Assembly (NCBI GenBank): GCA_018003315.1
Contig: JAGNEJ010000004.1
Span: 1-64,000 of the forward strand
DNA length: 64,000 bases
Origin: Verrucomicrobiales bacterium
GTDB lineage: Bacteria; Verrucomicrobiota; Verrucomicrobiia; Verrucomicrobiales; V1-33
Direction of reading: 5' to 3'
Positions 1,955-42,443 of this stretch are shown here, piece after piece. Position 1 is the first letter of the stretch. The number at the start of each line of letters is the position of its first letter. A program made the translations under genes and the position numbers. The notes beneath the pieces were generated by a model that was not told the origin of the DNA, searched no databases, and saw nothing but the letters and a program-made list of their open reading frames with translations.

Positions 1955-3484
<1,530 letters not shown>

Positions 3485-4042
3485 GGAAATAGCAAAGGAG
3501 TTCGGGTTCGGGTTGCGGTGGTGGGCAGTCTGCTCTTCCAGGCTCTGGGCTCAAGGCACCAAGCGGCAGCCGCCGCAATTTACATCGATTGCCGGGGAGC
3601 AGAGGCGAGGGAGATAACGAGAGTCCCTCGGTTTCGCAAGCCCTATTTGTGAAATTTTTCACAAACTCCCCCGCCCTGCCACCGACTCCAAATCCCCCGC
3701 TCCTTCCACCGCGGTCCATGCGACCAATGATCTCAGCAGCCGGAGGTTCCTCATCGGCAAAACCGCCGGGTCCACTCGGCAAATGCCACATTCCGGCTGC
3801 GTTCACCGCGGGGGAATCCCCAAAACACTCCTCATTCGGCCCAATGGATTCAAAATCACGCGCATTCGCCAGGGTTTCGCATTCTCAAAAAATACAATTT
3901 CGCTCGAAATTCAGGAAAAATTAACGAAATAAACACTTGATAGTAAAACAATTGGAGCCAATTCACGGAAACCTCACCAAATTCTTGATTCTTTGAACCG
4001 ATGCATCTACATCTTTCAGTTTCAAGCAATTCCAACTAGAGA
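3485..4042. other. Divergent intergenic region between atpA and the rapA-like gene
   Basis: These 558 bases separate two divergently transcribed genes and must hold both promoters. No convincing protein gene is visible. The half near 3885-4040 is markedly AT-rich compared with the surroundings, as expected of a promoter for the plus-strand gene. A TTGATT at 3985-3990 with TACATC 17 bases downstream is a weak sigma-70-like candidate. A perfect palindrome lies at 3646-3665 and is listed separately. Confidence 0.5.
3646..3665. promoter_or_regulatory. Perfect AT-rich inverted repeat upstream of atpA, possible operator
   Basis: The sequence is TTTGTGAAA, two T residues, then TTTCACAAA: 9-bp arms that match perfectly. 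It lies about 160 bases upstream of the atpA start codon. The TGTGA/TCACA half-sites resemble CRP/FNR-family operators, but the spacing is shorter than in those sites, so the protein that might bind is unknown. Confidence 0.4.
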
Positions 4043-6973
4043 ATGAATCGATTCGTCCCCGGACAGCGCTGGCTAAGTCAAACAGAACCAGAACTTGGCC
4101 TCGGTTTGGTCATCAAATCTGAACCCGACAAAGTCAGCATCGTATTTCCGTCCACCGAGACGACACGGGTTTATACCATCGAGTCGCCCCCGCTGACCAG
4201 GGTGCGTTTTTCGGTCGGGGACATCCTGAAAACCCAGGACGGAAAGTCGTTTGTGGTTGAAGACCTTACGGAAAAAAACGGGCTGGTGACCTACCTGAGC
4301 AAAGGCAAGAAAATCGACGAAAGTCGGCTGTCGGACTCACTGACATTCAGCAAACCGATGGACCGCCTGCTCAATGGCCAGGTGGACGACAAGGGAATCT
4401 ACAACCTGCGGCATCGGGCGCTCTACCGGCGATTCAAGACTTACCGTTCACCCCTGCGGGGCCTGCTGGGGGGCCGGTTTCATCCCGCAGCGCATCAGCT
4501 CTATGTGGCCACTCAGGCCACGCGGTCCATGCACCCCCGGGTGCTCCTGGCGGACGAAGCGGGACTGGGCAGACGGGTTGAGGCGGGGTTGATTCTGCAG
4601 CGACTGCAGGTTGCCGGACATGCCAACCGCGTGCTGTTGGTGGCACCGGAGCGGCTGCTGGAGTGGACGGAAACGGAACTGACCCGCCGCTTTGGATTCG
4701 CCTTCACGCGACTTTCCGAGAAAGATCTGGCCGGCTCCGCCAAGCCCGCAAAAAAGACCACCGCCAAAAAGGCCAAGGCAGGAGCAGAGGCCGCAAATCC
4801 CTTTCTGGAGAAGGGGAATTGGCTGTCGTGTTCCCTGGAGAGCTTCAAATCCAAACCCTCCCACCAGGCTGCGGATGCCGAGTTTGACGTGCTGGTGGTG
4901 GACGGGGTGGAAACCTTGGAATGGTCTGAAACCAGCGCGAGTCCGGCTTACAAGGCGGTGGACCATGCGGCGGAGGCGGCCAAGAGCCTCATTCTCCTCA
5001 GCGCCAACGGACCGGAACTGGATTTGGCCAATCACGAAGGAGCCATCCGGCTCCTGGATTCCGAGGAATTTTCCAGCCTGCGGCGCTACCACAAACACCG
5101 CAAGGACCTGGAGCCACTGGCCGCCGCAGTCATCAAGTCCGCAACGGCGAAGGACATCGACCGGGAAACCGAAGCAACGCTCAAACCCCTGGCCGCCGGC
5201 GACCCGAAGATCAAGGAATGCATCAAGGCTTGGAAAGACGACCGCGAGCATGCCCGCGATCAGCTTGTCGAGTATCTGCTCGATTCCCAGGAATGTGGCC
5301 GGTCCGTTTTCCGGAACACGCACCACAGCCTGCAGAGCCGGCTCACCCGGCGCACTCTGGAATGGGTGAAACTGGAAGCAAAACCCGAAACCCGTGACCA
5401 TCTGCGGGAGGAATTCAAACACCTGGGCAAGGAAGAACCCGCCACCGGAAAAACCAAGACCCATCCCAGTGCCGTTGACGCTCCGGCAGCCCTCTGGCTT
5501 GCGGACATCATTTCCCCACCCATCCAGCCGGCCCCGGTGCCCGCACTGCCGAAATCCACGGAACCGCCCCCTCCTCCACCCCCGCCCCCGCCGAAGGCGC
5601 TGGTCGTGTGTGCCAACAGGGGCCGCGCCATGGCTGCGGCCAAAGCCCTGGCAAAAAAAGTGCCGGACAAAATCGCCCTCATCACGGACGAAGAGCGTGC
5701 GGGGCTGCCGGCGGATTTTGCTGCGATGGTGGTCGGTCTGGAAGACACCTGCGGACGCGGGTTTTCCGGGGTGGATTTTTTGGTGCTCTGGGACACGCCC
5801 CACACGCTGGTGGAAGCGCGGCTCGGTTCCGCCCTGCTGGACCTGTCAGGCGATCCGACGCCGGTCAAAATTCTCCTGCCGTATGTGGCGGACACTCCGC
5901 AGGAGCTGCTGGGCAGGTGGCTGGCTGACGGCCTACTGGCCTTGACTCACTCCTCCTCTGCTCAGGACGCCGTCGTGGCCGAGCATTTCAAAACCGCACT
6001 CGACATCGCCAAACGCATCGGAGTCCGTCACAATCCGGCCCTGGAGGCGGAGATGAAGGCTTTGGCCAAAAAGACCCTGTCCGCCTGCGAGGCTGCAGCG
6101 AAAAAAATCGAAAAACACCGGGATTTGCTGCTGGAAACCGCCTCGTGCCGACCTTCGTATGCTGACCAGGCGCATCACCGCATGACCAGCAGCGACGACG
6201 ATGCCTCACTGGACATTTTCGTCAACCGCGTGCTGGAACAATGCGGCATGGTGGTCGAAAGCAAAGAGTCCCGCCAGAGCACCGTGAAGTGGAACCCCGA
6301 GGCCACCCACCGGCTGGAAGATGTGCCCAAGGACGGTTTGACCCTGGTCTTCAATCGCAAAGTCGCCTTGGCCAATGAGTCGAGCCAACTGCTCACCTGG
6401 GATCATCCGCTGGTGGCCAGCGCTACGGAACGCCTGCTGGCAACTGCCATCGGCAATACCGCCTACGTCGTTTGGGAAGATGAACGCGCGCAGATCGTCC
6501 TGCTGGAAGGCATCTTTTTGTCCGAGCCTGCGGCGGCCCCGCCCGCCCTGCAGGCTGAGCGCTACATGCCGCCGACTCCGGTGCGCGTGGTGGTCTCCCA
6601 CGAGCTGGAAGATCTCAGCGGCATTTACACCACCGAGCTGCTGAATAAAAACGTCCGCAATGGCCGCCGGGAATGGCTGCGCAACAATGCGCGCCCCCTG
6701 CACAGCCTCGTGCCGGGCATGCTGCGCAATCTGGTGCAGCGCGCCGAAGTCAAGGCGCAGGAGTTGGCCGCCAAGGCGAGCCACCAGACTGAGCAGATTC
6801 TCAATTCGGAAATTTCCCGGTTGCACCGCCTCCCGCAGACAGCCCGCCGCAAGGCGGAAATCGCCCGCATCGAAACGCAGATCGTCGAATTGAAAAAGCT
6901 GATGACCAGGCCACATCTCCGCCTCGACAGCCTGCGCCTCGTACGTCGGGGCCCCAGTGGCAAGGGCATCTGA
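4043..6973 (+). CDS. RapA-like RNA-polymerase-associated SNF2 protein with degenerate ATPase motifs
   Basis: At 976 residues it matches E. coli RapA (968) along its whole length. The N-terminal Tudor-like region is close (GQRWLSQTEPELGLG, then VSIVFPSTE, LTFSKPMDRLLNGQ), as is the C-terminal part (LTWDHPLV, RYMPPTPVRVVV, RLDSLRLV). RapA recycles stalled RNA polymerase using ATP. Here the helicase motifs are lost. Motif I is DEAGLGRRVEAG (about residues 171-182) instead of DEVGLGKTIEAG. Motif II is VVDGVE (about 285-290) instead of DEAH. Motif III is LLSANG instead of LLTATP. Motif VI is ARLGSALLDLSG (about 591-602) instead of QRIGRLDRIGQ. An Ala/Lys-rich insert (about 233-252) and a run of ten prolines (about 508-518) are further oddities. 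It probably binds polymerase without hydrolysing ATP (inference). Confidence 0.88.
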   Translation: MNRFVPGQRWLSQTEPELGLGLVIKSEPDKVSIVFPSTETTRVYTIESPPLTRVRFSVGDILKTQDGKSFVVEDLTEKNGLVTYLSKGKKIDESRLSDSLTFSKPMDRLLNGQVDDKGIYNLRHRALYRRFKTYRSPLRGLLGGRFHPAAHQLYVATQATRSMHPRVLLADEAGLGRRVEAGLILQRLQVAGHANRVLLVAPERLLEWTETELTRRFGFAFTRLSEKDLAGSAKPAKKTTAKKAKAGAEAANPFLEKGNWLSCSLESFKSKPSHQAADAEFDVLVVDGVETLEWSETSASPAYKAVDHAAEAAKSLILLSANGPELDLANHEGAIRLLDSEEFSSLRRYHKHRKDLEPLAAAVIKSATAKDIDRETEATLKPLAAGDPKIKECIKAWKDDREHARDQLVEYLLDSQECGRSVFRNTHHSLQSRLTRRTLEWVKLEAKPETRDHLREEFKHLGKEEPATGKTKTHPSAVDAPAALWLADIISPPIQPAPVPALPKSTEPPPPPPPPPPKALVVCANRGRAMAAAKALAKKVPDKIALITDEERAGLPADFAAMVVGLEDTCGRGFSGVDFLVLWDTPHTLVEARLGSALLDLSGDPTPVKILLPYVADTPQELLGRWLADGLLALTHSSSAQDAVVAEHFKTALDIAKRIGVRHNPALEAEMKALAKKTLSACEAAAKKIEKHRDLLLETASCRPSYADQAHHRMTSSDDDASLDIFVNRVLEQCGMVVESKESRQSTVKWNPEATHRLEDVPKDGLTLVFNRKVALANESSQLLTWDHPLVASATERLLATAIGNTAYVVWEDERAQIVLLEGIFLSEPAAAPPALQAERYMPPTPVRVVVSHELEDLSGIYTTELLNKNVRNGRREWLRNNARPLHSLVPGMLRNLVQRAEVKAQELAAKASHQTEQILNSEISRLHRLPQTARRKAEIARIETQIVELKKLMTRPHLRLDSLRLVRRGPSGKGI

Positions 6974-7079
6974 AGGCTGGACAACAGGCAGCATTGGTTC
7001 CCGGACCGATTGGAAAAAACCGCCATTGCGGAACCCGAACCGGATGCATGCCATCCGCGGGTGTGCTACGCACGCAGCG

Positions 7080-9731
7080 ATGCGTCTTCGTTGGCTCCTG
7101 CCCGCCCTCCTCCCGCTTTGTGCTGCTGCTGCCGCACCGCCGCCGGATTTCCGCTTCCAGGTCGAAGTGCTTGCGGAAGGAATGCCGCAGCCGATGCATT
7201 TGTTTCGCCTCGACGACGGACGCATTTTCTTTTCCCAAATCGAAGGGAAAATCTGCGTCTTCCTGCCGGACACCCGCAAAGTGCAGGAAGTCGGTGCCAT
7301 CGAGGTGACGACCGCCAACGAAAACGGCCTGCTTGGGATGACGCTTGACCCCGGATTTTCCGAAAACCACTGGATCTACCTGCTCCATTCCCCCAAAGAC
7401 TATCCCGGCCAAATCCTGAGCCGCTTTGTCATTTCCGAAAACCGCATGGTTTTGGCGAGCCGCAAGGACCTGCTGAAATGGGAGGAGCAGCGCCAGGAAT
7501 GCTGCCACCATGCTGGCACCCTGCGTTTCGGTCCGGACGGGTGCCTCTACATTTCCACCGGCGACAACACCCATCCCTTCGGCGATTCCGACAGTTATGC
7601 GCCGCTCGATGAACGGTCGAACCGCGGTCCGTGGGACGCCCAAAAATCCTCCGGCAACACCAACGATCTTCGTGGGAAAATCCTGCGCATCCGGCCCACG
7701 GAAGCAGGCGGCTACACCATTCCGGAGGGCAATCTCTTCCCCTCCGGCACTGCGCTCACCCGGCCGGAAATTTTTGCCATGGGGCTGCGCAACCCGTGGC
7801 GCTTTTCCATCGATGCCCGGACCGGCATCGTTTACACGGGCGACGTCGGACCGGACGCCGGAGGACCGAACAAAGATCGCGGACCGCGTGGGTATGACAC
7901 GGTCAATCAAATCCGCCGTCCCGGAAACTTCGGCTGGCCCTATGTCCGGGGAAATGAATCCTACCACGATTTCGATTTTGCCACCCGCACCCCCGGTGCG
8001 GTTTTCGATCCGCAAAAGCCGATCAATGCCAGTCCTAACAATACCGGCGCCAAAGAACTACCGCCCGTCGTGGCACCGCTCATCTGGTATCCCAGCAGCC
8101 CCAGCGACCGGTTTCCTCTGCTCGGGGCCGGCGGACGCACCGCCTGCGCCGGGCCGGTTTTTCATTTTGCGGAATCCTTTCGCACCACCGGAGGTTTTCC
8201 CGAATACTTCGACAACTGCCTGCTGGTTTACGACTGGTCGCGCCCCTTCCTGGTGCTGGCCCGGCTCAATGCCCGGTCAGAACTGGCGGAACTGCAGCCC
8301 TTCACCGCGGCCATTCGGGTGGCGCTGGGCAATGATGACGGCAGCGGACGCTTTCAGATCAAGCGTCCGGTGGACATGACCTTCGGCAATGACGGGGCGC
8401 TCTACCTGCTGGATTACGGAGAAACGTGGGGGGTGAACCGCGATGCCAGATTGGTGCGCATTTCCTATCAATGGGGAAACCTTGCTCCGGCGCCCAAACT
8501 CGCCGTAAAACCAACCGCAGGACGCGAACCGCTGACCGTCGGCCTGAGCAGCGAAGGGACCACGGACCGCGATGGCGATCCCCTCACCTTTGAGTGGCGG
8601 CTGCATCCCGGGGACCAATTGCTGGCAACCACGCCAGCGCATCAGGCCGTGCTGACCCAGCCCGGCACCTACACCGTTGAACTGAAGGTCCGCGATGACA
8701 AAGGCGGCGTGGCCAGCGTCACCGCACCGGTCACCGTGGGCAACTCTCCGCCACAAGTGGAATTTGTTGCACCACGGGAGGGCGATTTTTTCACTCCCGG
8801 GCGTCCGGTCGCTTGGAAGGTGCGCGTGCAGGATGCCGAGGACGGAGATTCCACCGCCCATGCCGACGCCTTCGCGGTGCGCACCCTCGTCAGCAGCCAG
8901 TGGCGCAAAGGCAGCAAGACGGACATTCCTCCGGGACTGACGTTGATGACGCAGAGCGACTGCTTCAACTGCCATGCGGTGGAACAAAAAATCGTCGGCC
9001 CCTCATTGATGGAGATTGCGCAAAAATACCGAAATCAGGCCGGGGCGGAAGCCGTCAGCGTGGACCGGGTACGCCAGGGATCCGCCAATGTCTGGAGCCC
9101 CATTCCCATGCTGCCCCACCCGCAGCACAGCCTGGACGAACTGCACCAGATGGTCCGCTACATTTTCAGCTTGGAAGCAGGAAAATCCGGTCCGGGACTG
9201 ACCAGGGCACTGGAAGGCATGCTGACGCCCCCTGAGGATCCCGAGCTTTCGGCGCTGGTGCTGGACGCCGCTTTCACCGATGCCGGATGCGGCGTCGCAC
9301 CGCCCATTGTTGGTCGCGCTACCCGCACCCTGCGATCCCGAAGATTTGAAGCGGAGGATGCCGCGGAAATCCACGGCTCCCTGGTCTTGAAATTTGGCAA
9401 CGCCGGTGGCAAAAAAGGGCTTGGAAGCATCGGCCACCAGCATTTCGCCCGCTTTGCCGACATTCCCTTGGAGCAATGCGGTGCGGTGACCTGCCGGGTG
9501 GCCAGCGCTGGCACCGGAGGCGTCATTGAACTTCGTTCTGACAAACCGGATGGCCGGATCCTCGCGACACTCGAGGTCAAGCCCACCGGAGCTTGGGACC
9601 GGTGGGTGGAACGGACCGCCCCCATTCCTGCGGACGTTCCGCGGAGTGAGGTTTTTGTCGTCTTCGTCAAACCCGGTGTCGGCGGCGGCATGATGAATCT
9701 GGACTGGATTCAGTTTGAACCCAGAGGCTGA
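7080..9731 (+). CDS. Secreted glucose/sorbosone dehydrogenase-like protein with PKD, cytochrome c and C-terminal CBM-like domain
   Basis: A signal peptide (MRLRWLLPALLPLCAAAAA) selects the ATG at 7080; an upstream ATG at 7044 in the same frame would bury it. The first ~460 residues are a six-bladed propeller of the PQQ-dependent sugar dehydrogenase type (GLLGMTLDPGF, HHAGTLRFGPDG, NDLRGKILRI, GLRNPWRFS, PVDMTFGNDGALYLLDYGE). A PKD-like domain follows (TDRDGDPLTFEWRLHPG), then a single cytochrome c domain with the haem motif CFNCH and a later methionine (IPMLPHPQ). The C-terminal ~130 residues resemble a CBM6/carbohydrate-binding domain (RRFEAEDAAEIHGS, WDRWVERTAPIP, MNLDWIQFEPRG). The likely role is periplasmic oxidation of a sugar or aldehyde with electrons passed to the attached haem. 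The gene follows rapA by 106 bases. Confidence 0.85.
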   Translation: MRLRWLLPALLPLCAAAAAPPPDFRFQVEVLAEGMPQPMHLFRLDDGRIFFSQIEGKICVFLPDTRKVQEVGAIEVTTANENGLLGMTLDPGFSENHWIYLLHSPKDYPGQILSRFVISENRMVLASRKDLLKWEEQRQECCHHAGTLRFGPDGCLYISTGDNTHPFGDSDSYAPLDERSNRGPWDAQKSSGNTNDLRGKILRIRPTEAGGYTIPEGNLFPSGTALTRPEIFAMGLRNPWRFSIDARTGIVYTGDVGPDAGGPNKDRGPRGYDTVNQIRRPGNFGWPYVRGNESYHDFDFATRTPGAVFDPQKPINASPNNTGAKELPPVVAPLIWYPSSPSDRFPLLGAGGRTACAGPVFHFAESFRTTGGFPEYFDNCLLVYDWSRPFLVLARLNARSELAELQPFTAAIRVALGNDDGSGRFQIKRPVDMTFGNDGALYLLDYGETWGVNRDARLVRISYQWGNLAPAPKLAVKPTAGREPLTVGLSSEGTTDRDGDPLTFEWRLHPGDQLLATTPAHQAVLTQPGTYTVELKVRDDKGGVASVTAPVTVGNSPPQVEFVAPREGDFFTPGRPVAWKVRVQDAEDGDSTAHADAFAVRTLVSSQWRKGSKTDIPPGLTLMTQSDCFNCHAVEQKIVGPSLMEIAQKYRNQAGAEAVSVDRVRQGSANVWSPIPMLPHPQHSLDELHQMVRYIFSLEAGKSGPGLTRALEGMLTPPEDPELSALVLDAAFTDAGCGVAPPIVGRATRTLRSRRFEAEDAAEIHGSLVLKFGNAGGKKGLGSIGHQHFARFADIPLEQCGAVTCRVASAGTGGVIELRSDKPDGRILATLEVKPTGAWDRWVERTAPIPADVPRSEVFVVFVKPGVGGGMMNLDWIQFEPRG

Positions 9732-9739
9732 CCGCGCCC

Positions 9740-11023
9740 TTACAAAAACCGGTCCGGGTCAACCAATGGCGAAGCCTCCGGCGGATGGTTCCCGGAAAGC
9801 AGTTCCGCGATGAGCCAGCCGGTGGCCGGGCCAAGGCTGAGTCCCAGCATGGCATGACCAGTGGCGGTGGAGAGGTTTTCGTAATTGCGAAAACGTCCGA
9901 TGTAGGGAAGCCCGTCCGGAGAACACGGACGCAGTCCGCTCCAGGCAGTCACACCGCCGAAATGCTCCGTTGCAAACTGGGGGAAATAGCGCGCCGCACT
10001 TTTGATGATGCCTTGCACGCGGCGCGGATTGATGTCCGGATTCGTTCCAGAAAACTCCATGGTTCCCCCAAAGCGCATCGCTCCACCCAGGGGCGTCACC
10101 GCGACTCGTGCCTCGGCCAGGATGCAGCAAATCTCCCCGCAAGCCGGAGGATTTGTCAGGGTCAGGCTGTATCCCTTGCCAGCCTGCATCGGCAGGGAAA
10201 CGTCCAGGCGGTCGGCAATCTCCGGCGACCAGACACCGCCGCAGAGCAGAAATTCATCCGCTTCAAATTCCGCTCCCGCGGAGGTGATGGCTCTGTGGAT
10301 TTTCCGCGAATCGCCCGCGAGGTGCGTCACCTCGGCCTGCCAGTGAAACTGCGCACCCATCTCCCGAATCCGGCGGGCCAGGCTATCAGCCAGGACCGCG
10401 GGATTCAGGTGACAGTCCTGCGGGAAATATACGCCGCCCAGAATGCGGCGCTGCAAGCCCGGATCCAGCCGGGCGATTTCCTCGCTGGTCAGGATTTCCA
10501 CGGGAATGCCCAGTTCCCTGGCCCGCGCTGCGGTGTGCGCCTCCTCGCGGGCGGCGGCCTCCGTCTGGTAAAGCATCAACAGTCCCTTCTGCACCAGCCC
10601 CATTTCGGAACCCAGTTCCTGTTCGAGTTCCAGAAACAGCCTGCGGCTAAGCAGCCCCAGATCCCGCAGGGCAAAGGCGGCACGGTCGGCGCGGGACCGC
10701 GTGGCGGCGCGCAGAAAACGCCACCCCCAGCGCAGCATTCCAGGGTTTAACCGCGGCTTGATGTAAAACGGACTCTCCGGATTCCACATCCACTTCAGCC
10801 CCAGCGACACCATGCCGGGCGAGGCCAGCGGGGCGAAGTGGCTCGGACAAATCATGCCGGCACTGCCCCGCACGCAACTGTCATGCCCCAGTCTTCCGCG
10901 CTCCAGCACGGTGACGGCGTGCCCGCGCTTCAGCAGATGCCATGCGCAGAACAGTCCGATGATGCCGCCGCCGATGATGCAGAAATGCCGTGCGGGCAGC
11001 GGGGAAGGCGGAGGTGGCTTCAT
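9740..11023 (-). CDS. FAD-dependent D-amino-acid dehydrogenase-like oxidoreductase (DadA family)
   Basis: The protein has 427 residues, the usual DadA/DAO length. The dinucleotide-binding motif IIGGGIIGLFCAWHLLKRGH begins at about residue 15, followed by LERGRLGHDSCVRGSAGM, which matches the DadA signature region. The C-terminal FAD contact region is WSGLRPCSPDGLPYIGR with ATGHAMLGLSLGPATG. Such enzymes oxidise D-amino acids or related amines (for example D-proline or hydroxyproline) to the keto or imino product. The substrate cannot be told from the sequence, and no partner genes such as alr, dadX or proline racemase are adjacent. It is transcribed in the same direction as the downstream-facing metallo-hydrolase at 11048, which ends only 25 bases before it, so the two probably share a transcript. 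Confidence 0.85.
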   Translation of the reverse strand: MKPPPPSPLPARHFCIIGGGIIGLFCAWHLLKRGHAVTVLERGRLGHDSCVRGSAGMICPSHFAPLASPGMVSLGLKWMWNPESPFYIKPRLNPGMLRWGWRFLRAATRSRADRAAFALRDLGLLSRRLFLELEQELGSEMGLVQKGLLMLYQTEAAAREEAHTAARARELGIPVEILTSEEIARLDPGLQRRILGGVYFPQDCHLNPAVLADSLARRIREMGAQFHWQAEVTHLAGDSRKIHRAITSAGAEFEADEFLLCGGVWSPEIADRLDVSLPMQAGKGYSLTLTNPPACGEICCILAEARVAVTPLGGAMRFGGTMEFSGTNPDINPRRVQGIIKSAARYFPQFATEHFGGVTAWSGLRPCSPDGLPYIGRFRNYENLSTATGHAMLGLSLGPATGWLIAELLSGNHPPEASPLVDPDRFL

Positions 11024-11047
11024 GCATCCAGACTTGCTGCGAAGCGG

Positions 11048-12448
11048 TCAAAATTCCACGGTTGTGCCGAGCTTGGCCACGCTGATTTCCTTGTCCGGAT
11101 GGGCGGCAGCCAGTCCGTCGCGAAACGCCTCGCTGCGTTCCTTTTCCCCGTGCACCAGCCACACCTTCTCCCTGGCGCCAGTCATGCGGCCAAAGTAGGC
11201 CAGCAGTTCGCTGTGGTCGGCGTGTCCCGAGAAGGAGTCGAGCGTTTCCACCCTGGCACGGACCGGATAGGATTTGCCCAGAATGTTCACCCGATGGTGG
11301 CCCTGGCGGATTTTCCAGCCCAGGGTGTGTTCTGCACAGTAGCCGACAAAAAGCACGGTGGTGCGGGCATCCTCGATGTTGTTGGCCAGGTGGTGCAAAA
11401 TGCGTCCGGCTTCGCACATTCCGCTGGCGGAAATGATGATGAACGGACCATCGAGTTTGTTGAGGTTTTTGGATTCCGTGGAACTGCGCACCAGCCGCAG
11501 CCCCTCGAAACCAAACGGGTTGCTGCGGGAGAACAGGGCTTCATAAACCCCGGCATTGAAGCATTCGGGGTGCAGCCGGAAAATTTCCGTGGCACTGACC
11601 GCCAGCGGACTGTCCACCACAATGGGCACGGCGGGAATTTTGTTCGACTCCAGCAGGTCGTGGAGCACGACCAGCAGTTGCTGGGTGCGTTCCACGGCAA
11701 AGGCGGGAATGATGACTTTCCCCCGCTTTTGCAGCGCGCCGCGCAGAATGCTGCACAACTGCTCGCGGGCATTGGCTGCCAGATCGTGCTCCACTCCGCC
11801 GTAAGTGGACTCCATGAGGACGTAGTCGATGTTTTCCGCCGGCACCGGATCGATCAGCAGTTCATTGTTCCCACGGCCCACATCGCCCGAAAACAACAGG
11901 CGCTTCTTCCGTCCCGTGCTGAACTCATGCAGGTCGAGCACGACTTGGGCACTGCCGAGAATGTGTCCGGCGTCAAGGAAGGTGGCCGTCACTCCATCGG
12001 CGATCACCATCGGTCGTTCGTAGTTGAAATTCACGAACTGGCGCAGGCAGCGCTCCGCATCCCTGGGGCTGTAGAGCGGCTCCACCTTGCCAGCCGCACC
12101 TTCTGCCGCATGGCGGTTGAGCCATTCGGCGTCACCCTCCTGGATCTTTGCCGAATCCTCCAGCATGATCTGGCAAAGATCACGGGTGGCGAAGGTGGAG
12201 TAAATGTTCCCCTTGTAACCTTGCTTCGCCAGATTGGGCAGGTTGCCGCTGTGGTCGATGTGAGCGTGACTCAGCACCACCGCATCCAGCGAGGCCGGTT
12301 CGAAAGGAAAATTCCGGTTCCGCCGGTTGGACTCCTCCCGCCGTCCCTGGTAAAGGCCGCAGTCCAGCAGAATGCGCCGTCCATTGATTTCCAAAAGATG
12401 CTGGGAACCCGTGGTGGTTTCCGCCGCTCCACAAAAGGTTAGTTTCAT
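11048..12448 (-). CDS. Metallo-beta-lactamase/beta-CASP ribonuclease-like hydrolase
   Basis: The start MKLTFCGAAETTTGSQHLL at 12448 fits the family; upstream in-frame codons add nothing recognisable. Motifs are intact: VVLSHAHIDHSGNLP (zinc ligands), DAGHILGSAQV, LLFSGDVGRG, the beta-CASP segment with ESTYGG, IPAFAVERTQQLL and IIISASGMCEAGRILHHL, then FSGHADHSELLAYF. This is the CPSF/YSH1-like branch found in bacteria and archaea, expected to cut single-stranded RNA with two zinc ions. Length (466 residues) is normal for the branch. It lies directly upstream of the DadA-like gene on the same strand, but no functional link is apparent. A cytoplasmic location is expected because no signal peptide is present. 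Confidence 0.9.
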   Translation of the reverse strand: MKLTFCGAAETTTGSQHLLEINGRRILLDCGLYQGRREESNRRNRNFPFEPASLDAVVLSHAHIDHSGNLPNLAKQGYKGNIYSTFATRDLCQIMLEDSAKIQEGDAEWLNRHAAEGAAGKVEPLYSPRDAERCLRQFVNFNYERPMVIADGVTATFLDAGHILGSAQVVLDLHEFSTGRKKRLLFSGDVGRGNNELLIDPVPAENIDYVLMESTYGGVEHDLAANAREQLCSILRGALQKRGKVIIPAFAVERTQQLLVVLHDLLESNKIPAVPIVVDSPLAVSATEIFRLHPECFNAGVYEALFSRSNPFGFEGLRLVRSSTESKNLNKLDGPFIIISASGMCEAGRILHHLANNIEDARTTVLFVGYCAEHTLGWKIRQGHHRVNILGKSYPVRARVETLDSFSGHADHSELLAYFGRMTGAREKVWLVHGEKERSEAFRDGLAAAHPDKEISVAKLGTTVEF

Positions 12449-20633: not shown

Positions 20634-21809
20634 TCATCCAGCCGCAGCCGGGCCCCCCGCCTCGTCATAGATCGCCTCCAGCGCCCGGGTCGCCCGGCTG
20701 CGCTCAAAATTCTCCTCCACGGAATGCCGTCCGCCTGCGGCCAGGCGGCGATATTCCTCCACGCTGGTCATGACCCGCAGGACCGCCGCGGTGAGGGTGT
20801 CAACGTCACCCTCGGGCGCCAGCAGTCCGCTGACACCGTCCTCGATGGCCTCCGGAATGCCTCCGTGTTGCGTGGCCAGCACCGGCAGGCCGCTGGCCAT
20901 GGCTTCGATCATGGCATTGGGCACGCCTTCACGATTGCCGTCGGCGGGCGTTTCACTGGGATGCAAAAACAGGTGTGAAGCATAGGCCAGATCCCGCAGT
21001 TGGGACTGGTTGACAAATCCGGTGAAATGCACCCGCCCCGCCAGCCCCCAGGCGGCGACAAGGGATTCAATTTCTCCGCGCAACGGTCCATCGCCGGCCA
21101 GCGTCAGCACCGCGCCAGGGAAGCGCGGAGCCAGGTTCCGGAACACGGCCAGCGTCGTGCGCAGGCCTTTTTTGGCGACCATGCGTCCGGCCTGTAACCA
21201 GCGCCATTCGCCGTTCTCCGGCCACGGACGCTCCACAAACGGCCATTCCTCCAGCAGCAGCCCGGTCCGCTGCAGGCGCAGTTTTTCCGCGGGACAGCCG
21301 AGATTTCCCAGTTCGGTCAACAGCGACTGCGACCGGCCCAGCACCAGTCGCGCCGCGGCAAAGACGCCCAGCAGGGCCTGCTTGAATTTCGGATGCTCCA
21401 CATCCACTCCCGCATCCGCCCCGTGAAAGGAAACCACCACGGGTTTTGGACAGGCCTGGATGAACGGAAGCAGCTGCACCGCAATGTTGCCGAAAAACAC
21501 ATGCACCACGCGGGCGTCATGCCGGTAAACTTCCTCCAACAGGCGGATGACGCGCCCCGTGGTCACCGGAACCGGCCCACGCACCACATGCCGGTGCCAG
21601 GTCCTCCGGAGCCAGCGCCAGGGAGGCTTTTCCAGCACCGTGGTCCGTTTGGGATTGAAGGGAAAAAGCGATTCATTTTCGCGCTTCTGGCAGATCACCA
21701 CCGGCTGCCAGCTCCGCAGCGAAGTCACCTGCCGGTAAATGTGCAGCATGTCCCGCTTGAGGAAATCCTGACAATAACAGGCGACAACAGGTGGCGGAGG
21801 ACGGTTCAA
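20634..21809 (-). CDS. Glycosyltransferase family 4 protein
   Basis: This 391-residue protein has the GT-B layout of GT4 enzymes. The N-terminal half contains VSFHGADAGV, near the acceptor-binding region. The C-terminal half contains LQAGRMVAKKGLRTTL, LAGDGPLRGEIESLV, HLFLHPSETPADGNREGVP and the nucleotide-sugar E-x7-E motif in EGVPNAMIEAMASGLPVLA followed by TQHGGIPEAIEDG. GT4 enzymes transfer a sugar from a nucleotide donor with retention, commonly in lipopolysaccharide, exopolysaccharide or glycolipid assembly. No membrane segment is visible, so it is probably a peripheral cytoplasmic protein. Neighbours do not identify the glycan. The next minus-strand gene upstream is the SulP transporter, 55 bases away. 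Confidence 0.88.
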   Translation of the reverse strand: MNRPPPPVVACYCQDFLKRDMLHIYRQVTSLRSWQPVVICQKRENESLFPFNPKRTTVLEKPPWRWLRRTWHRHVVRGPVPVTTGRVIRLLEEVYRHDARVVHVFFGNIAVQLLPFIQACPKPVVVSFHGADAGVDVEHPKFKQALLGVFAAARLVLGRSQSLLTELGNLGCPAEKLRLQRTGLLLEEWPFVERPWPENGEWRWLQAGRMVAKKGLRTTLAVFRNLAPRFPGAVLTLAGDGPLRGEIESLVAAWGLAGRVHFTGFVNQSQLRDLAYASHLFLHPSETPADGNREGVPNAMIEAMASGLPVLATQHGGIPEAIEDGVSGLLAPEGDVDTLTAAVLRVMTSVEEYRRLAAGGRHSVEENFERSRATRALEAIYDEAGGPAAAG

Positions 21810-21863
21810 TGCACCGGATTTAGAAGCACTCCCCCGCCATCGGCAAGTGCAAACGCGGCGGGT

Positions 21864-23555
21864 TCATTTGCCGAGCAATACCCCGGCACGGACCAGGGCC
21901 TCGTCGAGGTTGGCGCAGAAGTTGTCCAGTCCGATCCGCTCGGCCAGCCCGCTTTCGTAAAAAACCTTCATCGGCTGCGGCTGCACGGCGGTCAGCACAA
22001 TGGTGACGCCGTCGCGGTGCATTTTTTCCACGGCCACCTCCAGGGAATGCAGGGCGGTGGCATCGACGGCGGGAACGTGACGCAGACGGAAAATGACCAG
22101 GCGGGGTTTTCCCGCGTGGGCGCGCAGGGCTGCTTCCAACTTTTCCACCGCGGCAAAAAACAGCGGCCCCTCAAACCGGAACAGCACCACCCCATCCGGA
22201 ATCGACTTGCCGCGCAGCGAGTTGGAACCGTCAAATTCGGAATCCGTGTCGGGGGTCAGCAGCTTCACATGGGAAATGTTTTCCATGCGTTTGACAAACA
22301 GCACCACGGCGATGACCAGCCCGACGGCCACCCCCACGGTGAGATCGAACACCACGGTCAGGACAAACGTGGTGAGCAGCACGGCGAAATCCGACCGGGA
22401 ACTCCTCCGCAGTTCTCTGAAAGTGTCCCATTCCGCCATGCGCACCGCCACCCCCATGAGGACCGCTGCCAGCCCGGCCAGCGGAATAAACCGGGCCAGC
22501 GGCGCCGCAAACAGGACAAAGGCCAGCAGCACCACGGCGTGCACCATGCCGGCCAGCGGAGAGCGACCGCCGCTGCGAATGCTCGCCGCCGTGCGGGCGA
22601 TCGCCCCGGTAGCGGCAATCCCCCCCACAAACGGCACCGCCAGATTCGCCAGCCCCTGGCCGATGAGTTCGGAGTTGGAATCATGCCGGGTGTCGGCCAT
22701 GCCGTCGGCCACCGTGGCGGAAAGCAGACTTTCAATGGCACCGAGGGCGGCAATGGTGAAAGCGCTGCCCGCGAGGGCGCGGAGTTTTTCCAGCGAGATG
22801 GCTGGCAGATGCCAGTCCGGAAACCCGCTGGGCAGTCCGCCAAACCGCGTTCCGATGGTCGCCACCGGCCATTGCAGGAAATACACCAGCAGCGTGGTCG
22901 CCACCACGGCCACGATGGCCGCCGGCACCCGGCGGGTCAGCCTGGGCCACAGGAAAACAACCAGCAGCCCCAGTCCGCCCACCACCGGCGTCTCCCAGGT
23001 CGGCCACGCCGTCCAGTCGAGTTCCCGCAGGTGCTTGCCCACCTCCCAGGCCAGTTCCGGGGCATCACCGGGGCGCTTGAAGGAAAGCCCCAGAAACTCG
23101 GGAAGCTGTCCCAGGAAAATGATGACGGCGATGCCGCTGGTGAACCCGGCAATGACTGGATAGGGAATGTAGCGCAGCAGCGCCCCGAGCCGGAATATCC
23201 CCATCAGCACCAGCAGCAAGCCCGCCAGCAGGGTGGCCAGGGCCAGGCCGTCATACCCGTGCGCCGCCACCACTGCCGCCAGCACCGGAACAAATGCTCC
23301 GGTCGGTCCGCCAATCTGCTGCCGGGAGCCGCCGAAAACCGAAATGATGAATCCACCGACGATCGCCGTCCACAAACCCTGCCCGGGAGCGACTCCCGAG
23401 GCCATGCCAAATCCGATGGCCAGCGGCAGGGCGATGATGCCCACCGTCACCCCCGCACCCAGATCCGAAAAAAACGAGCGCCGGGCATCCGCGGTGAACA
23501 AGGCCAGGAAGGCGGGCCGGTAGAGGAAGGCACGGGAGGAGAACAGGGCTTTCAT
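21864..23555 (-). CDS. SulP-family anion transporter with C-terminal STAS domain
   Basis: The 563-residue protein has about ten to twelve hydrophobic helices, opening with FFSDLGAGVTVGIIALPLAIGFG, the SulP signature region, and GGSRQQIGGPTGAFV, which forms the anion site in this family. The STAS domain lies at the C-terminus (PDGVVLFRFEGPLFFAAVEKL, RLVIFRLRHVPAVDATALHSL). SulP proteins exchange or co-transport sulfate, bicarbonate, or related oxyanions; selectivity cannot be assigned. The start at 23555 (MKALFSS) is preferred over 23594. It is divergent from the UGA-containing HMA gene at 23754, sharing a 198-base promoter region, which hints at, but does not prove, common regulation. Confidence 0.9.
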   Translation of the reverse strand: MKALFSSRAFLYRPAFLALFTADARRSFFSDLGAGVTVGIIALPLAIGFGMASGVAPGQGLWTAIVGGFIISVFGGSRQQIGGPTGAFVPVLAAVVAAHGYDGLALATLLAGLLLVLMGIFRLGALLRYIPYPVIAGFTSGIAVIIFLGQLPEFLGLSFKRPGDAPELAWEVGKHLRELDWTAWPTWETPVVGGLGLLVVFLWPRLTRRVPAAIVAVVATTLLVYFLQWPVATIGTRFGGLPSGFPDWHLPAISLEKLRALAGSAFTIAALGAIESLLSATVADGMADTRHDSNSELIGQGLANLAVPFVGGIAATGAIARTAASIRSGGRSPLAGMVHAVVLLAFVLFAAPLARFIPLAGLAAVLMGVAVRMAEWDTFRELRRSSRSDFAVLLTTFVLTVVFDLTVGVAVGLVIAVVLFVKRMENISHVKLLTPDTDSEFDGSNSLRGKSIPDGVVLFRFEGPLFFAAVEKLEAALRAHAGKPRLVIFRLRHVPAVDATALHSLEVAVEKMHRDGVTIVLTAVQPQPMKVFYESGLAERIGLDNFCANLDEALVRAGVLLGK

Positions 23556-23753
23556 GAAGCAATCCACCCATACCGGGGGTGCGCCGGTCTGCATCCGCTC
23601 AATTTTTCCCGCTTCGGTGCGCGGACGGGCCTTCGTTCTGCTCTACCGATTGATTCGAAAGGAATGGTTGAATTGCCAGATGACAAATGCCGGATCCTGA
23701 CCGATGAATCGGGCGCAAGGCGGTTCACCGCACCCACGAAAAAACAGACATCC

Positions 23754-24125
23754 ATGAAATTCATCGCATCCATCCTGGCGGTCGTCACGCTGCTTGCCGG
23801 TTTCGCGTTCAGCGAAACGGCAGCGAAGACGAAATACGTTGTCGGCATGACCGGCGTCACCTGAGCAGGCTGCAAAAAGCACGTCCGTGAGGCGTTTGCA
23901 ACACTGAAGGGAGTCGATAAGGAGTCCATCAAGATCGAAGCAGAGGGCGAAAGCCAGAAGGTCACATTCAATTCGACCGATGCATCGATCACCAAGGAAC
24001 AGGCAGTGAAGTCACTCGGCGACCAAGCCGACACCTACATTGTCAAAACCTTCAAAACCGATGGTGGTCCGGCCGGTGACGGCAAGAAAACGGAGGAACC
24101 CAAGAAGGAGAAAAAGTCCGAGTAG
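23754..24125 (+). CDS. Candidate selenoprotein: secreted HMA-fold protein with UxxC motif (in-frame UGA at 23862-23864)
   Basis: The frame starts with a signal peptide (MKFIASILAVVTLLAGFAFS) followed by TKYVVGMTGVT, then UGA at 23862-23864, then AGCKKHVREAFATLKGV and 87 further codons to TAG at 24123-24125 without another stop. The HMA (heavy-metal-associated) fold normally has CxxC at exactly this point (TGVTCAGC), so the UGA replaces the first metal-binding or redox cysteine, giving UxxC. Conservation continues beyond the UGA (VTFNSTDASITKEQAVKSL), so the downstream frame appears to be maintained. A bacterial SECIS-like hairpin follows at once (23865-23900). A selenocysteine-tRNA-like gene occurs at 37382-37475. 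The C-terminal ~20 residues are lysine- and glutamate-rich. The mature product of about 100 residues would lie in the periplasm or outside and might carry a metal or act in redox transfer. The alternative is a nonsense mutation or sequence error. Confidence 0.78.
23865..23900 (+). promoter_or_regulatory. Candidate bacterial SECIS element
   Basis: Directly after the UGA, TGCAAA (23871-23876) pairs with TTTGCA (23895-23900). Inside, CAC (23880-23882) pairs with GTG (23887-23889), leaving the apical loop GTCC (23883-23886). The loop starts 18 nt after the UGA and begins with G then U, as expected of SelB-binding hairpins, which lie close behind the UGA inside the coding region. Confidence 0.6.
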
Positions 24126-24177: not shown

Positions 24178-24215
24178 CACCCCGGCCGCCGTTGCGCGCC
24201 GGGGTGTTCTGTTTT
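24178..24215 (+). terminator. Intrinsic terminator of the UGA-containing HMA gene
   Basis: A 9-bp perfect stem (CACCCCGGC with GCCGGGGTG) closes an 11-nt loop, and TTCTGTTTT follows. It lies about 50 bases after the TAG of the HMA gene and just before the convergent end of avtA. A dedicated terminator argues that the upstream frame is a real transcription unit. Confidence 0.75.
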
Positions 24216-37307: not shown

Positions 37308-37381
37308 CCGTGGTCAGCGCCATGCACCCGGCAGTGTTGTTCCCGATCAACAATCCATTGCGGCAGCTGGGTTTGAAGGAG

Positions 37382-37475
37382 CGGAGAGGCAAGGAATCGA
37401 ACCAAGCCCTGCAAGGAGCACTTGCAGACAACGGTTTTGAAGACCGCGAGGGCCACCAGGCACCCATCACTCTCC
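37382..37475 (-). tRNA. selC: Candidate selenocysteine tRNA, anticodon UCA
   Basis: Read on the minus strand, the sequence folds as a 94-nt tRNA lacking an encoded CCA. The acceptor begins GGAGAG pairing with CTCTCC (37470-37475 with 37383-37388). The anticodon loop is CTTCAAA on a GCGGT/ACCGT stem (anticodon at 37438-37440), the same loop as E. coli selC. The long variable arm has a perfect 7-bp stem (CTGCAAG/CTTGCAG around 37409-37427), as in tRNA-Sec. A D arm with a short loop (TGGT) between GCC and GGC follows the AT spacer. The T loop is TTCGATT. Weaknesses: a U-C mismatch at acceptor position 7 and two U-U mismatches in the T stem, so the molecule is imperfect or the sequence has errors. 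It sits 222 bases downstream of the RND operon's last gene, on the same strand. Confidence 0.75.
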
Positions 37476-37696: not shown

Positions 37697-39211
37697 TCAG
37701 TGGCGACGTCCGAACATGCGCTTCAGCAGGCCGGGTTTGGCAGGCGTTGCGGACGTTGCGTCAGGGTCCGGTGCGGAGGCTGGAATTTCCACTGGCAGGC
37801 TTTGATTCCAGCCACCGCCCAAGGCCTTGACAAGGGCGACGGTGGCGATGAGCCGCTGGCCGCGGATTTGATCCAGCGCGCGTTTGGCGGCCAGGGCAGA
37901 GCGGCTGGCGTCGATCACTTCCAGGTAGGGGGAACTGCCGGCTTCATACCGTTTCATGGCAAAATTCACCGCATCCATCGCTGCTGCCCGCGCTTTCGTT
38001 TGCGAGGCAAACTGCGCGCTCAAATTCCGCAATGCTGCCAACTGGTTTTCCACGTCCGCAAATGCCGTGAGCACGCTCTGCCGGTAAAGTGCCAGGGCTT
38101 CATCGTGCGCGGCGCGCACCGCCTCCAGATTCGCACGGCCCCGGCCTCCGCTGAACAGCGGAAGGCTGACGCTGGGGCCGATGCCCCATTTCTGGCTCTC
38201 CGTCACAAACAGGGAGCTGAGTTCGCCGCTCAAAAAACCGCCATTGCCAATCAGCTTGATGGAGGGGAAAAACCACGCCTTGGCCACGCCGATCTGTGCA
38301 TTGGCAGAGGCGAGCCGGCGCTCGGCCTGGGCCACGTCGGACCGCCGTTCCAGGAGATCGCTCGGCAGTCCGGCGGGAATTTCCGGCGGCGCGCCCTGGC
38401 TGCCTTCCCGGGCCTGCAGATGGAATTCCGGCGCCAGCGTGCCGCTGAGCACGGCAATGGCGTTTTCAAGCTGGTCGCGCTGGGTTTGCAGTCCGGCCAG
38501 CTCGGTCCGGGCGGAAGCCAGCTCCGCTTCGCTCTGGGCCTGCTCCAGTTCGCTTCCCGCACCGGCTTTGACCTTGGCCGTGGCGATGTCCAGGGCCTTG
38601 CCCCGCCACATGACGGCCTCTCTGAGCGTTAGGATTTCCTCATCGACGGCCCGCAGCCGGAAGTAATTCTGCGCCACGTCGGCCTGGAGGCTCAGCAGTA
38701 CGCTCTGCATGGCCGCTGCGGCGGCAGCGGCGTCCGCGCGGGCTCCTTCAAACTGGCGGCGCACTTTTCCCCAGAGGTCGATCTCGTATGTCAGGTCCAG
38801 GGGCACGTCGAAGGACGCCCCCTCATAGCGCACTCCGTTGAGGGGAAACGCGGATGGCATGTTCGCGGAGGTCCCCTGATGCTGCGCGGTGGCCCCTGCG
38901 CCGAGGGCGGGAAAAAACTGGCTGCGGGCAATTCTGGCGGCGGCGCGGGCCTGGTCGAATCGGGCAACGGCAGCCTTCAGTTCCTGGTTGTGCCGGGTGG
39001 CAGAGTCCAGGAGTTGGTTGAGCGTTTTGTCCTTGAAAACGGTCCACCAGGCGCCGCGCGGCAGGGTTTCCAGCGGACGCATCTCGCGCCACTGCGGAGC
39101 CGCCTTGTAGTGCCTGGGTGCGACGGTCTCCGGCTTTTTGAAATCCGGACCGATCTGGGCCGCCGCGGGCACGGAAGCAAGTGTCAGGAGCAGGAGCAGT
39201 GGTGTCTTCAT
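37697..39211 (-). CDS. RND efflux outer-membrane channel (OprM/NodT family)
   Basis: The 504-residue protein is a TolC-like factor of the NodT/OprM group: IGPDFKKPETVAPRHYKA at the N-terminus, LNQLLDSATRHNQELKAAVAR, DLTYEIDLWGKVRRQFEGARA, LPSDLLERRSDVAQAERRLASANAQIGVAKA and YLEVIDASRSALAAKRALDQ. The usual lipobox cysteine before GPDF is absent (SVPAAAQIGPDF), so it is probably a plain signal-peptide protein (MKTPLLLLLTLASVPAAAQ) and not lipidated. The channel would join the RND pump across the outer membrane. Its ATG overlaps the RND gene's stop codon by 4 bases (ATGA). It is the last gene of the TetR-MFP-RND-OMF set. Confidence 0.93.
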   Translation of the reverse strand: MKTPLLLLLTLASVPAAAQIGPDFKKPETVAPRHYKAAPQWREMRPLETLPRGAWWTVFKDKTLNQLLDSATRHNQELKAAVARFDQARAAARIARSQFFPALGAGATAQHQGTSANMPSAFPLNGVRYEGASFDVPLDLTYEIDLWGKVRRQFEGARADAAAAAAAMQSVLLSLQADVAQNYFRLRAVDEEILTLREAVMWRGKALDIATAKVKAGAGSELEQAQSEAELASARTELAGLQTQRDQLENAIAVLSGTLAPEFHLQAREGSQGAPPEIPAGLPSDLLERRSDVAQAERRLASANAQIGVAKAWFFPSIKLIGNGGFLSGELSSLFVTESQKWGIGPSVSLPLFSGGRGRANLEAVRAAHDEALALYRQSVLTAFADVENQLAALRNLSAQFASQTKARAAAMDAVNFAMKRYEAGSSPYLEVIDASRSALAAKRALDQIRGQRLIATVALVKALGGGWNQSLPVEIPASAPDPDATSATPAKPGLLKRMFGRRH

Positions 39212-42200
39212 GGCTGGAGTGGCTGGTCAAGGACAGGTTCTGGCAGGGAAGCAGGGGGAGGATCCGGCTGGACAATTTGCGATTTTTTTCGCCCCAGATT
39301 CATGAGCACGACGTAGAACACCGGCGTGAGGAAGAGCCCGAGGAAGGTGACTCCGATCATGCCGGCAAAAACGGCACTGCCCATGGCGCGGCGCATTTCG
39401 GCTCCGGCTCCGTGGCTGACCACCAGCGGATACACCCCGGCGATGAAGGCGATGCTGGTCATGAGAATGGGGCGCAGGCGCAGGCGGCAGGCTTCCAGCG
39501 CGGCGGCCACGGGACTCATTCCCTCATGCTGCTTTTCCCGTGCGAATTCCACAATGAGGATGGCATTCTTGCAGGCCAGTCCGATGAGAACGATGAACCC
39601 GATCTGGGTGAAAATGTTATTGTCGCCGCCGGCAATGAACACCCCTGCCAGGGCAAAGAGCAGGCAGAGCGGCACGATGAGAATGATCGCCAGCGGGAGG
39701 CGCAGGCTTTCATACTGCGCGGCCAGCACCATGAAGACCAGCAGGATGCACAGCGGATAAATGTAGATGGCGGTGTTGCCGGCGATGACTTTTTGATAGA
39801 CCAGGTCGGTCCAGTCGGCTTCGAATCCCGGCGGCAGCACCTGTTTTGCCAGGGAGGCGATTTTTTCCTCCGCCTGGGCGGAACTGAGCGGCGGCAGCGG
39901 CGCGCCGTTGAAGTCTGCAGCCAGAAAGCCGTTGTAGTGGGTGACCCGGTCCGGGCCGTTGACTTCGCGGACGTTGACCATGGAACCGATGGGTGCCATG
40001 GCACCGGAGGCGTTGCGGACTTTCAGCCGGGTGATGTCGGAAATGTCGTCACGGTATTGCGCTTCCGCCTGCACCACCACTTGATAGGTGCGCCCGAAAC
40101 GGTTGAAATCATTCGCATAGAGCGAGCCAAGATTCACCTGCAGTGCTTCATACAGCGACTGCAATGGCACCCCCTGTGCCTTGGCCTTTTCGCGATCCAC
40201 GCTGGCTTCCAACTGCGGCACGTTCACCGTATATCCGGTGAACGGCTGGGCGAAGGAGCCGGACTGATGCGCGGCTCCCAGCAGGGCCATGGCCGCTCCG
40301 TAGGTGGCTTCGTAGCCCTGGTCGCCCCGGTCGGTGATCATCATTTTGAATCCGCCAATGGTCCCCAGGCCGTTGACCGGAGGCGGCTGGAAGACGGCGA
40401 CGAAGGCTTCCTCAATGGCGCTGAACTTCGCATTGAGCGCACCGGCGATTTCCGCTCCGCTGAGTCCGGGACCGCGGCGATTTTCAAATGCGTCCAGGGA
40501 GACGAACACGATGCCCGCATTCGAACTCATGGAAAATCCCTGAATGGACAAACCGGGAAAGGCCACCGTTCCGGAAACGCCCGGCTGTTTCAGGGCGATG
40601 TCCGTGAGCTTGCGGATGGCGGCCTCGGTGCGGTCGAGCGAGGCGGCATCCGGAAGCTGGGCAAAGGCGACCAGATACTGTTTGTCCTGCGTGGGAACAA
40701 AACCGCCGGGGACCACCTCGAACGCTTTCCAAGTCAGGAAAACCAGCCCGCCGTACACCAGCAGAGCCACCGCCGCCCGCCGGGCGATGACGCGGACCAC
40801 GCGGACATAACGGTCGCCAAACCAGGAAAAAAAGCGGTTGAACGGGCGGAAGATCCAGCCCAGCAGCCGGTCCAGAATCCGGCTCACCACATCTTTTTTG
40901 GCCCGGTGGTCACGCAGTAGCAGCGCGGAAAGCGCCGGGCTGAGCGTCAGGGAATTGAAGGCGGAAATGACCGTGCTGATGGCGATGGTGACGGCAAACT
41001 GCCGGTAGAACTGCCCGGTTAGGCCGCTGATGAATGCCGTGGGAATGAACACGGCGCACAGCACCAGCGCGGTGGCAATGATGGGCCCGGTGACCTCTTT
41101 CATGGCCTGGGCGGTGGCTTCGCGCGGGGTCAGCCCCAGGGCGATGTTTCGTTCCACGTTTTCCACCACGACGATGGCGTCGTCCACGACGATGCCGATG
41201 GCCAGCACCAGGCCGAAGAGGGAGAGGTTGTTGATGGAAAATCCCAGCAGGTGCATGACCGCGAACGTGCCGACCAGTGACACCGGCACCGCGGCCAGCG
41301 GAATGATCGACGCCCGCCAGGTCTGCAAAAACAGCACCACCACCAGCACCACCAGGCCGATCGCTTCCAGCAGGGTGGCCACCACGGCATTGATCGATTT
41401 TTTCACGAAGACCGTCGGGTCATAGACCACGTCGAAGTCGATCCCTTCCGGAAATTTCGTTTTCAGCTCCGCCATCCGCTGCCGCACGGACTGGGAAAGC
41501 GCCAACGCATTGGACCCGGGAAGCTGGAAGATGGGAATGCCCACGGCTTCCCGGTTGTTCAAAAGACTGCGCAGCGCGTATTCGCCGGACCCCAGCTCCA
41601 CGCGGGCCACCTCTGAAAGCGTGGTGATCTCCCCGTGCGACCCGGTTTTGACGATGATGGCGCCGAATTCCTCCTCGGTCACCAGGCGCCCCTTGGCATT
41701 GATGACCAGCTCGAACGGCACGGTGCCGGAAACCGGCTGCTGGCCGATGGCACCGGCGGCCACCTGCACGTTTTGTTCGCGGATGGCATTGACGACATCC
41801 CCGGCGGACACTCCCATGGACGCGGCCTTGTCAGGATCCAGCCAGATCCGCATGGCGTAGTCGCCGCCCCCAAACAACTGCACCGAGCCCACGCCAGGCA
41901 GTCTGGCCAGCTCGTCCTTCACGTTGAGGTTCGCAAAATTCCGCAGATAGAGCGCGTCGTAGCGCCCGTTGGGTGAAAACAAATGCACCACCATGGTCAG
42001 GTCTGGCGAGGATTTCACCGTGGTCACGCCGAAGCGTCGCACTTCCTCCGGCAGCTTCGGCAGCGCCTGGGAAACGCGGTTCTGCACCTGCACCTGGGCC
42101 ATGTCGATGTTCGTTCCGACCTTGAACGTCACCGTCAGGGTCATCGTCCCGTTGGAGGTGCTCTGCGAGGACATGTAGAGCATGTTTTCCACCCCGTTGA

Positions 42201-42414
42201 TGATCTGTTCCAACGGCGAGGCAACGGTTTCCGCAATCGTTTTTGGATTGGCACCGGGATAAGTGGCGGTGACGATGACCGTGGGCGGGGTGACTTCCGG
42301 ATACTCGCTCACCGGCAGACGCCAGAGCGAAATGGCGCCCAGCAGGAAAATGAGCATGGACAGCACCCCGGCGAAAATGGGCCGGGTGATGAAAAAATGG
42401 GAAAGCGTCTTCAC
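39208..42414 (-). CDS. RND multidrug efflux permease (AcrB/HAE1 family)
   Basis: At 1068 residues, with the AcrB-like first segment MKTLSHFFITRPIFAGVLSML, VVTATYPGANPKTIAETVASPLEQIINGVENMLYMSS, and transmembrane repeats including FSINNLSLFGLVLAIGIVVDDAIVVVENVER (the proton-relay Asp pair in VDDAIV), it is a hydrophobe/amphiphile efflux-1 pump. The central segments LPGVGSVQLFGGGDYAMRIWLDPDKAA and NDFNRFGRTYQVVVQAEAQYRDD are typical of MexF/AcrB-type pumps. It sits in the inner membrane and exports drugs or other amphiphiles with proton influx. It lies 29 bases after the membrane-fusion protein gene and overlaps the OMF gene. Confidence 0.96.
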   Translation of the reverse strand: MKTLSHFFITRPIFAGVLSMLIFLLGAISLWRLPVSEYPEVTPPTVIVTATYPGANPKTIAETVASPLEQIINGVENMLYMSSQSTSNGTMTLTVTFKVGTNIDMAQVQVQNRVSQALPKLPEEVRRFGVTTVKSSPDLTMVVHLFSPNGRYDALYLRNFANLNVKDELARLPGVGSVQLFGGGDYAMRIWLDPDKAASMGVSAGDVVNAIREQNVQVAAGAIGQQPVSGTVPFELVINAKGRLVTEEEFGAIIVKTGSHGEITTLSEVARVELGSGEYALRSLLNNREAVGIPIFQLPGSNALALSQSVRQRMAELKTKFPEGIDFDVVYDPTVFVKKSINAVVATLLEAIGLVVLVVVLFLQTWRASIIPLAAVPVSLVGTFAVMHLLGFSINNLSLFGLVLAIGIVVDDAIVVVENVERNIALGLTPREATAQAMKEVTGPIIATALVLCAVFIPTAFISGLTGQFYRQFAVTIAISTVISAFNSLTLSPALSALLLRDHRAKKDVVSRILDRLLGWIFRPFNRFFSWFGDRYVRVVRVIARRAAVALLVYGGLVFLTWKAFEVVPGGFVPTQDKQYLVAFAQLPDAASLDRTEAAIRKLTDIALKQPGVSGTVAFPGLSIQGFSMSSNAGIVFVSLDAFENRRGPGLSGAEIAGALNAKFSAIEEAFVAVFQPPPVNGLGTIGGFKMMITDRGDQGYEATYGAAMALLGAAHQSGSFAQPFTGYTVNVPQLEASVDREKAKAQGVPLQSLYEALQVNLGSLYANDFNRFGRTYQVVVQAEAQYRDDISDITRLKVRNASGAMAPIGSMVNVREVNGPDRVTHYNGFLAADFNGAPLPPLSSAQAEEKIASLAKQVLPPGFEADWTDLVYQKVIAGNTAIYIYPLCILLVFMVLAAQYESLRLPLAIILIVPLCLLFALAGVFIAGGDNNIFTQIGFIVLIGLACKNAILIVEFAREKQHEGMSPVAAALEACRLRLRPILMTSIAFIAGVYPLVVSHGAGAEMRRAMGSAVFAGMIGVTFLGLFLTPVFYVVLMNLGRKKSQIVQPDPPPASLPEPVLDQPLQP

Positions 42415-42443
42415 GGATTCAGGGAATGCAGCCGATCATGGAG

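Follow-up and report, generated by a model that had tools for sequence, protein, structure and literature searches.

Several selenoproteins with a link to metals have been described in prokaryotes. A 2026 inventory distinguishes 119 prokaryotic selenoprotein (sub)families, and the metal-linked ones among them comprise the UxxU proteins of NF041115, MerT-type proteins with a C/SxxU motif and P-type ATPases with UxxC (PMC13188914). In addition, two Sec-containing sequences were listed as MerP in the GOS study, where their motif was not described (PMC2398784). The gene considered here lies in a window of 64,000 nucleotides, the whole stretch of DNA that was analysed, from a Verrucomicrobiales genome of 5.09 Mb (155 contigs, 96% complete). 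It encodes a small protein with a heavy-metal-associated (HMA) domain, in which an in-frame UGA stands at the first position of the CxxC metal-binding motif, and the reading of this UGA as selenocysteine is strongly supported by comparison with homologous sequences.

When compared with the described systems, the protein resembles each of them in part. The UxxU metal-binding (seleno)protein NF041115 is likewise small and HMA-like and carries Sec in the CxxC positions. However, it has two Sec residues, whereas the window protein has a UxxC motif and reaches only 29.3 bits against an equivalog cut-off of 95, so that membership was rejected. This was nevertheless the nearest NCBIfam model; none of the NCBIfam cut-offs was reached by the window protein, and throughout the alignment of its homologs the same weakly matching families turn up. 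The periplasmic mercury-binding protein MerP (TIGR02052) is also exported and has an HMA domain in which the metal-binding motif follows the first strand, but the window protein scores 27.6 bits against an equivalog cut-off of 92.55, and no mer genes were recognised beside its gene, which is flanked by a SulP-type permease and a valine--pyruvate transaminase rather than by a mer operon; an assignment to MerP was therefore not retained. Cation-transporting E1-E2 ATPase selenoproteins (TIGR01525) carry the same UxxC motif (PMC13188914) in a soft-metal transport protein, although these are large membrane ATPases and not a small, exported, stand-alone domain. The MerT/CopZ fusion-like heavy metal transport selenoprotein NF045683 shares the link to metal transport and the HMA part, but it is fused to a MerT-like membrane part, and the score of the window protein is 12.1 bits against 375. 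Finally, CopZ-type copper chaperones (NF047957, NF033795 and TIGR00003), which are cytoplasmic, Cys-only proteins, have the HMA fold and the xCxxC motif in common with it; here too, the scores fall under the cut-offs, and membership was discarded.

The gene, its protein and its family

The gene extends from an ATG at position 23754 to a TAG at 24123–24125 on the forward strand and encodes 123 amino acids, U37 included. Its frame contains one in-frame TGA, at codon 37 (23862–23864), followed by 86 sense codons without a second stop. This TGA occupies the place of the first Cys of the CxxC ligand motif (TGVT-U-AGC), and the second Cys, C40, is encoded by TGC at 23871–23873 and is invariant in the family. 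The N-terminus consists of a hydrophobic, signal-peptide-like leader (MKFIASILAVVTLLAGFAFSETA, 23754–23822), predicted from the sequence; a similar leader is present in nearly all homologs. When U is read as Cys, residues 33–86 (23850–24011) match the Pfam HMA domain (PF00403; 31.7 bits, cut-off 24.8). AlphaFold2, run on the family alignment, predicts a beta-alpha-beta-beta-alpha-beta core with block pLDDT values of 93–97, the confidence being low across residues 1–20. HMA domains lead the Foldseek matches of this model in the PDB, with MerP (1osd) in second place, at modest E-values of about 0.005–0.01, and a profile search of PDB sequences retrieves copper ATPase domains, mercuric reductase, MerP and CopZ. 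Downstream of the gene, a terminator-like stem-loop at 24178–24206 on the forward strand, followed by a T-rich tail (TTCTGTTTT), folds strongly (-28 kcal/mol for a 56-nt stretch, z -2.9). It is absent from the list of a terminator scan, probably because of the loop and tail rules of that scan. Thus, the main features given in a preliminary description of this DNA, namely a signal-peptide HMA protein broken only by a UGA at the first CxxC cysteine, a frame that stays open to TAG and a terminator-like structure of its own, were all borne out. An 823-aa open reading frame that overlaps the gene start (21393–23864, forward strand) runs opposite to the SulP-type gene and is apparently spurious.

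One correction to this description is that the protein is no isolated oddity but belongs to a selenoprotein family that extends across Verrucomicrobiales. This family was found in 141 of the 289 genomes of this order that were searched. When 388 genomes from the whole phylum were searched with the family profile, no member outside the order was detected at E <= 1e-8, and a DNA pattern combining motif and SECIS, run over the contigs of 84,980 species, retrieved 49 stretches, nearly all of them from metagenome-assembled genomes (MAGs) named Verrucomicrobiales, Verrucomicrobia or Akkermansiaceae. The family thus appears to be confined to Verrucomicrobiales. A divergent sequence from a MAG labelled Planctomycetota (locus L122, NZBC01000257.1) contains two HMA-like stretches with one in-frame UGA each (GVTGMTUGGC and GVSGMRUVRMC); it fits the same pattern of UGA plus hairpin and is possibly a related selenoprotein from outside this order.

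Gene neighbourhoods and the role of the protein

The gene very probably encodes a small, exported HMA-fold selenoprotein, similar to MerP or CopZ, that would bind a soft metal with Sec as a ligand. Comparative evidence shows the UGA at 23862 to be recoded to Sec within UxxC under the direction of a SECIS hairpin, and SelA, SelB, SelD and tRNA-Sec are present. According to the proposed model, the leader would take the protein over the inner membrane. In the envelope, U37 through its selenolate and C40 through its thiolate may then jointly bind a soft metal ion, such as Cu+, Hg2+, Cd2+ or similar, presumably more tightly than a CxxC motif, in order to sequester the metal or to pass it to a recipient. 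Where the Sec machinery is missing, lineages would retain the protein as a Cys form.

The main rival to soft-metal binding is a selenoprotein that handles selenium in the envelope or carries out selenol/thiol redox reactions there, for instance by binding reduced selenium or selenite en route to a selenate-type ABC transporter. What speaks for this tentative alternative is the genomic context of some relatives. In 20 of the fetched loci, 19 from genus g6 and one from g20, the HMA gene lies head-to-head with mnmH (selU), which encodes tRNA 2-selenouridine synthase (429–440 bits in the two cases tested). Most of these loci have a NifS-like desulfurase alongside, and 13 of the 20 contain tRNA-Sec within the fetched stretch. 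Where the surroundings were read out more fully (L167, positions 3341–12045, L168 and L169, from genomes G172, G061 and G086, respectively), tRNA-Sec, selD and selA follow; L167 also encodes a putative selenate ABC transporter binding protein (TIGR04553, 261 bits, over the cut-off) accompanied by PhnC/PhnE-like partners, and at its end L169 reaches the start of selB. Given these neighbours, some members of the family border on a selenium-utilisation island, and the conserved neighbours in the two genera are selenium genes rather than metal-resistance genes. Metal binding also gains nothing from the window, where the flanks of the HMA gene contain neither a metal transporter nor mer or cop genes. 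The selenium association is, however, seen only in two genera belonging to one family, and elsewhere the neighbours are unrelated, as they are in the window, where the two flanking genes are little informative. Moreover, Cys forms persist in genomes without selA, and the fold is that of metal carriers. A stricter version, according to which the protein is dedicated to selenium handling as part of a Verrucomicrobiales selenium-utilisation island, with its own Sec binding or reducing incoming selenium species or sensing the supply of selenium, is considered unlikely. Binding of a soft metal thus remains the preferred function.

Some further neighbouring genes deserve mention in their own right. 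The L168 island also encodes an ArsS homolog, together with a SenB-like protein that narrowly misses its cut-off. In another locus (L080), a gene for a ZnuA-type metal-binding ABC lipoprotein (PF01297, 134 bits; 6385–7302) adjoins the HMA selenoprotein gene on the same strand. In the window itself, genes that read as an outer-membrane factor, an RND pump and a membrane-fusion protein are located at 37700–43000 on the reverse strand, near the gene for tRNA-Sec.

Evidence for recoding of the UGA

The preliminary description had pointed to a nearby tRNA-Sec-like gene and proposed looking for selA, selB and selD. The tRNA-Sec gene proved to be real: it has the anticodon UCA, lies at 37381–37475 on the reverse strand, 13.5 kb from the HMA gene, and is recognised by both ARAGORN and Rfam (RF01852, 52.2 bits) as the sole match over the Rfam cut-off in the genome. 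A second candidate (G000:C124:17608, 46.7 bits) was rejected, as ARAGORN identifies it as tRNA-Ser(UGA). The genome also encodes all three proteins, with scores over the cut-offs (SelA, 497 against 268 bits; SelB, 287 against 242; SelD, 374 against 125). Its selD gene (G000:C124, L164, about 9885–10940) has an in-frame TGA of its own, in HLASCAG-U-ASK, and UxxK is a known Sec position of SelD (PMC13188914); this SelD is therefore probably itself a selenoprotein. In another locus (L058), two predicted tRNA-Sec genes are found about 600 nt apart (8887–8979 and 9587–9681), with the HMA selenoprotein gene in the same stretch.

A sequence of this kind, taken alone, shows no more than one in-frame TGA, which might also be a real termination codon or have arisen by nonsense mutation or sequencing error, the gene then being a pseudogene. 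The stretches around 59 matches were read, giving 63 HMA copies, the copy of the window included. At the codon that corresponds to position 37, TGA stands in 53 copies, which come from some 49 genomes, and TGC or TGT in the other 10, so that position 37 is always U or Cys, and none of the 63 copies has an in-frame stop elsewhere before the protein end. Random stops along the homologous genes are thus absent, UGA occurring at this one position only, and the protein sequence downstream of the UGA is conserved among homologs. The Sec-form motif is mostly MTGVTU[AGN]GCK, and the Cys-form motif is GM[VS]C or GVVC followed by xxC. Of the 48 other genomes that carry TGA here, 46 have a clear selA, the two exceptions being only 53% and 59% complete; selA is present in one of nine genomes in which the Cys form alone was read. 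In family f4, whose other fetched members lack selA and have the Cys form, one locus (L060, genome G173) combines the UGA form with selA, and in the tree its protein is the sister of four f4 Cys forms (98/94 support). The tree requires at least three changes between Sec and Cys, with the reservation that 86 columns cannot resolve the deep forks. Two loci (L076 and L086) encode two HMA repeats in a single frame. Each repeat has a UGA and a SECIS-like hairpin to itself, and these proteins probably contain two Sec apiece.

The bacterial SECIS element of the window is a hairpin at 23881–23895 on the forward strand, with a 5-bp stem (ACGUC and GGCGU) and the loop CGUGA starting 21 nt past the UGA. 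With this hairpin imposed, the fold has -11.2 kcal/mol, 0.3 above the unconstrained minimum. Published rules for bacterial SECIS elements ask for a loop of 3–9 nt, a stem of 4–16 bp, a G in the first two loop bases, a spacing of 16–37 nt and a minimum free energy <= -7.5 (PMC13188914), all of which the hairpin satisfies. Its loop follows an N1-GU-N2 type pattern, with C-GU-G in the window and A-GU-U in other members. In a gapless alignment of 45 nt from the UGA, covering 49 distinct Sec genes, 47 have at least 5 bp at the loop offset of 21 nt, against an average of 4 out of 49, and never more than 10, in 1000 trials of synonymous-codon resampling from the rest of the same genes; none of the Cys-form genes has a 5-bp stem at that place. 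The innermost five pairs are 97–100% paired, RNAalifold recovers the same five pairs unprompted, and both-sided, compensatory changes occur in four of the seven pairs tested. The codons that form the hairpin are strongly biased as well: Val is GTC in 52 of 53 cases (38% elsewhere in these genes), and Ser is AGT in 27 of 27 (4% of Ser codons elsewhere) or TCG in 26 of 27 (12% elsewhere). The preliminary description was thus right in placing a SECIS after the UGA, but its GTCC-loop hairpin (CAC-GTCC-GTG) is one register off; it has 3 bp and -0.2 kcal/mol, its register is not conserved, and it overlaps the real one.

With the TGA kept at one codon across so many genomes, the protein conserved behind it and third positions frozen where the hairpin needs them, a pseudogene or sequencing error is very improbable. 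The in-frame UGA at 23862 is strongly supported as a selenocysteine codon, since both this UGA and the RNA hairpin behind it are maintained in dozens of related bacteria. The interpretation first proposed has held in each of the checks that were run, as the machinery is present, Cys is the alternative residue and the hairpin is conserved with covariation. Bacteria do have other means of UGA read-through, but insertion of another amino acid, be it Trp or a near-cognate one, is extremely improbable, given that the UGA form tracks selA, that the alternative is always Cys, that a SECIS hairpin follows and that UGA is the normal stop of many members (for instance, L044 and L048).

Significance of the family

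The stand-alone, exported UxxC HMA family is absent from the inventory of 119 (sub)families (PMC13188914), and a literature search of partial coverage yielded no paper describing it. As the family lies outside this inventory and under every NCBIfam cut-off examined, its genes are probably annotated as short stubs or missed by annotation pipelines. The SECIS is defined sharply enough for reporter tests, and because this small, soluble, single-domain metal-binding fold occurs in nature with either Sec or Cys, it would offer a clean test of what selenium contributes to metal binding.
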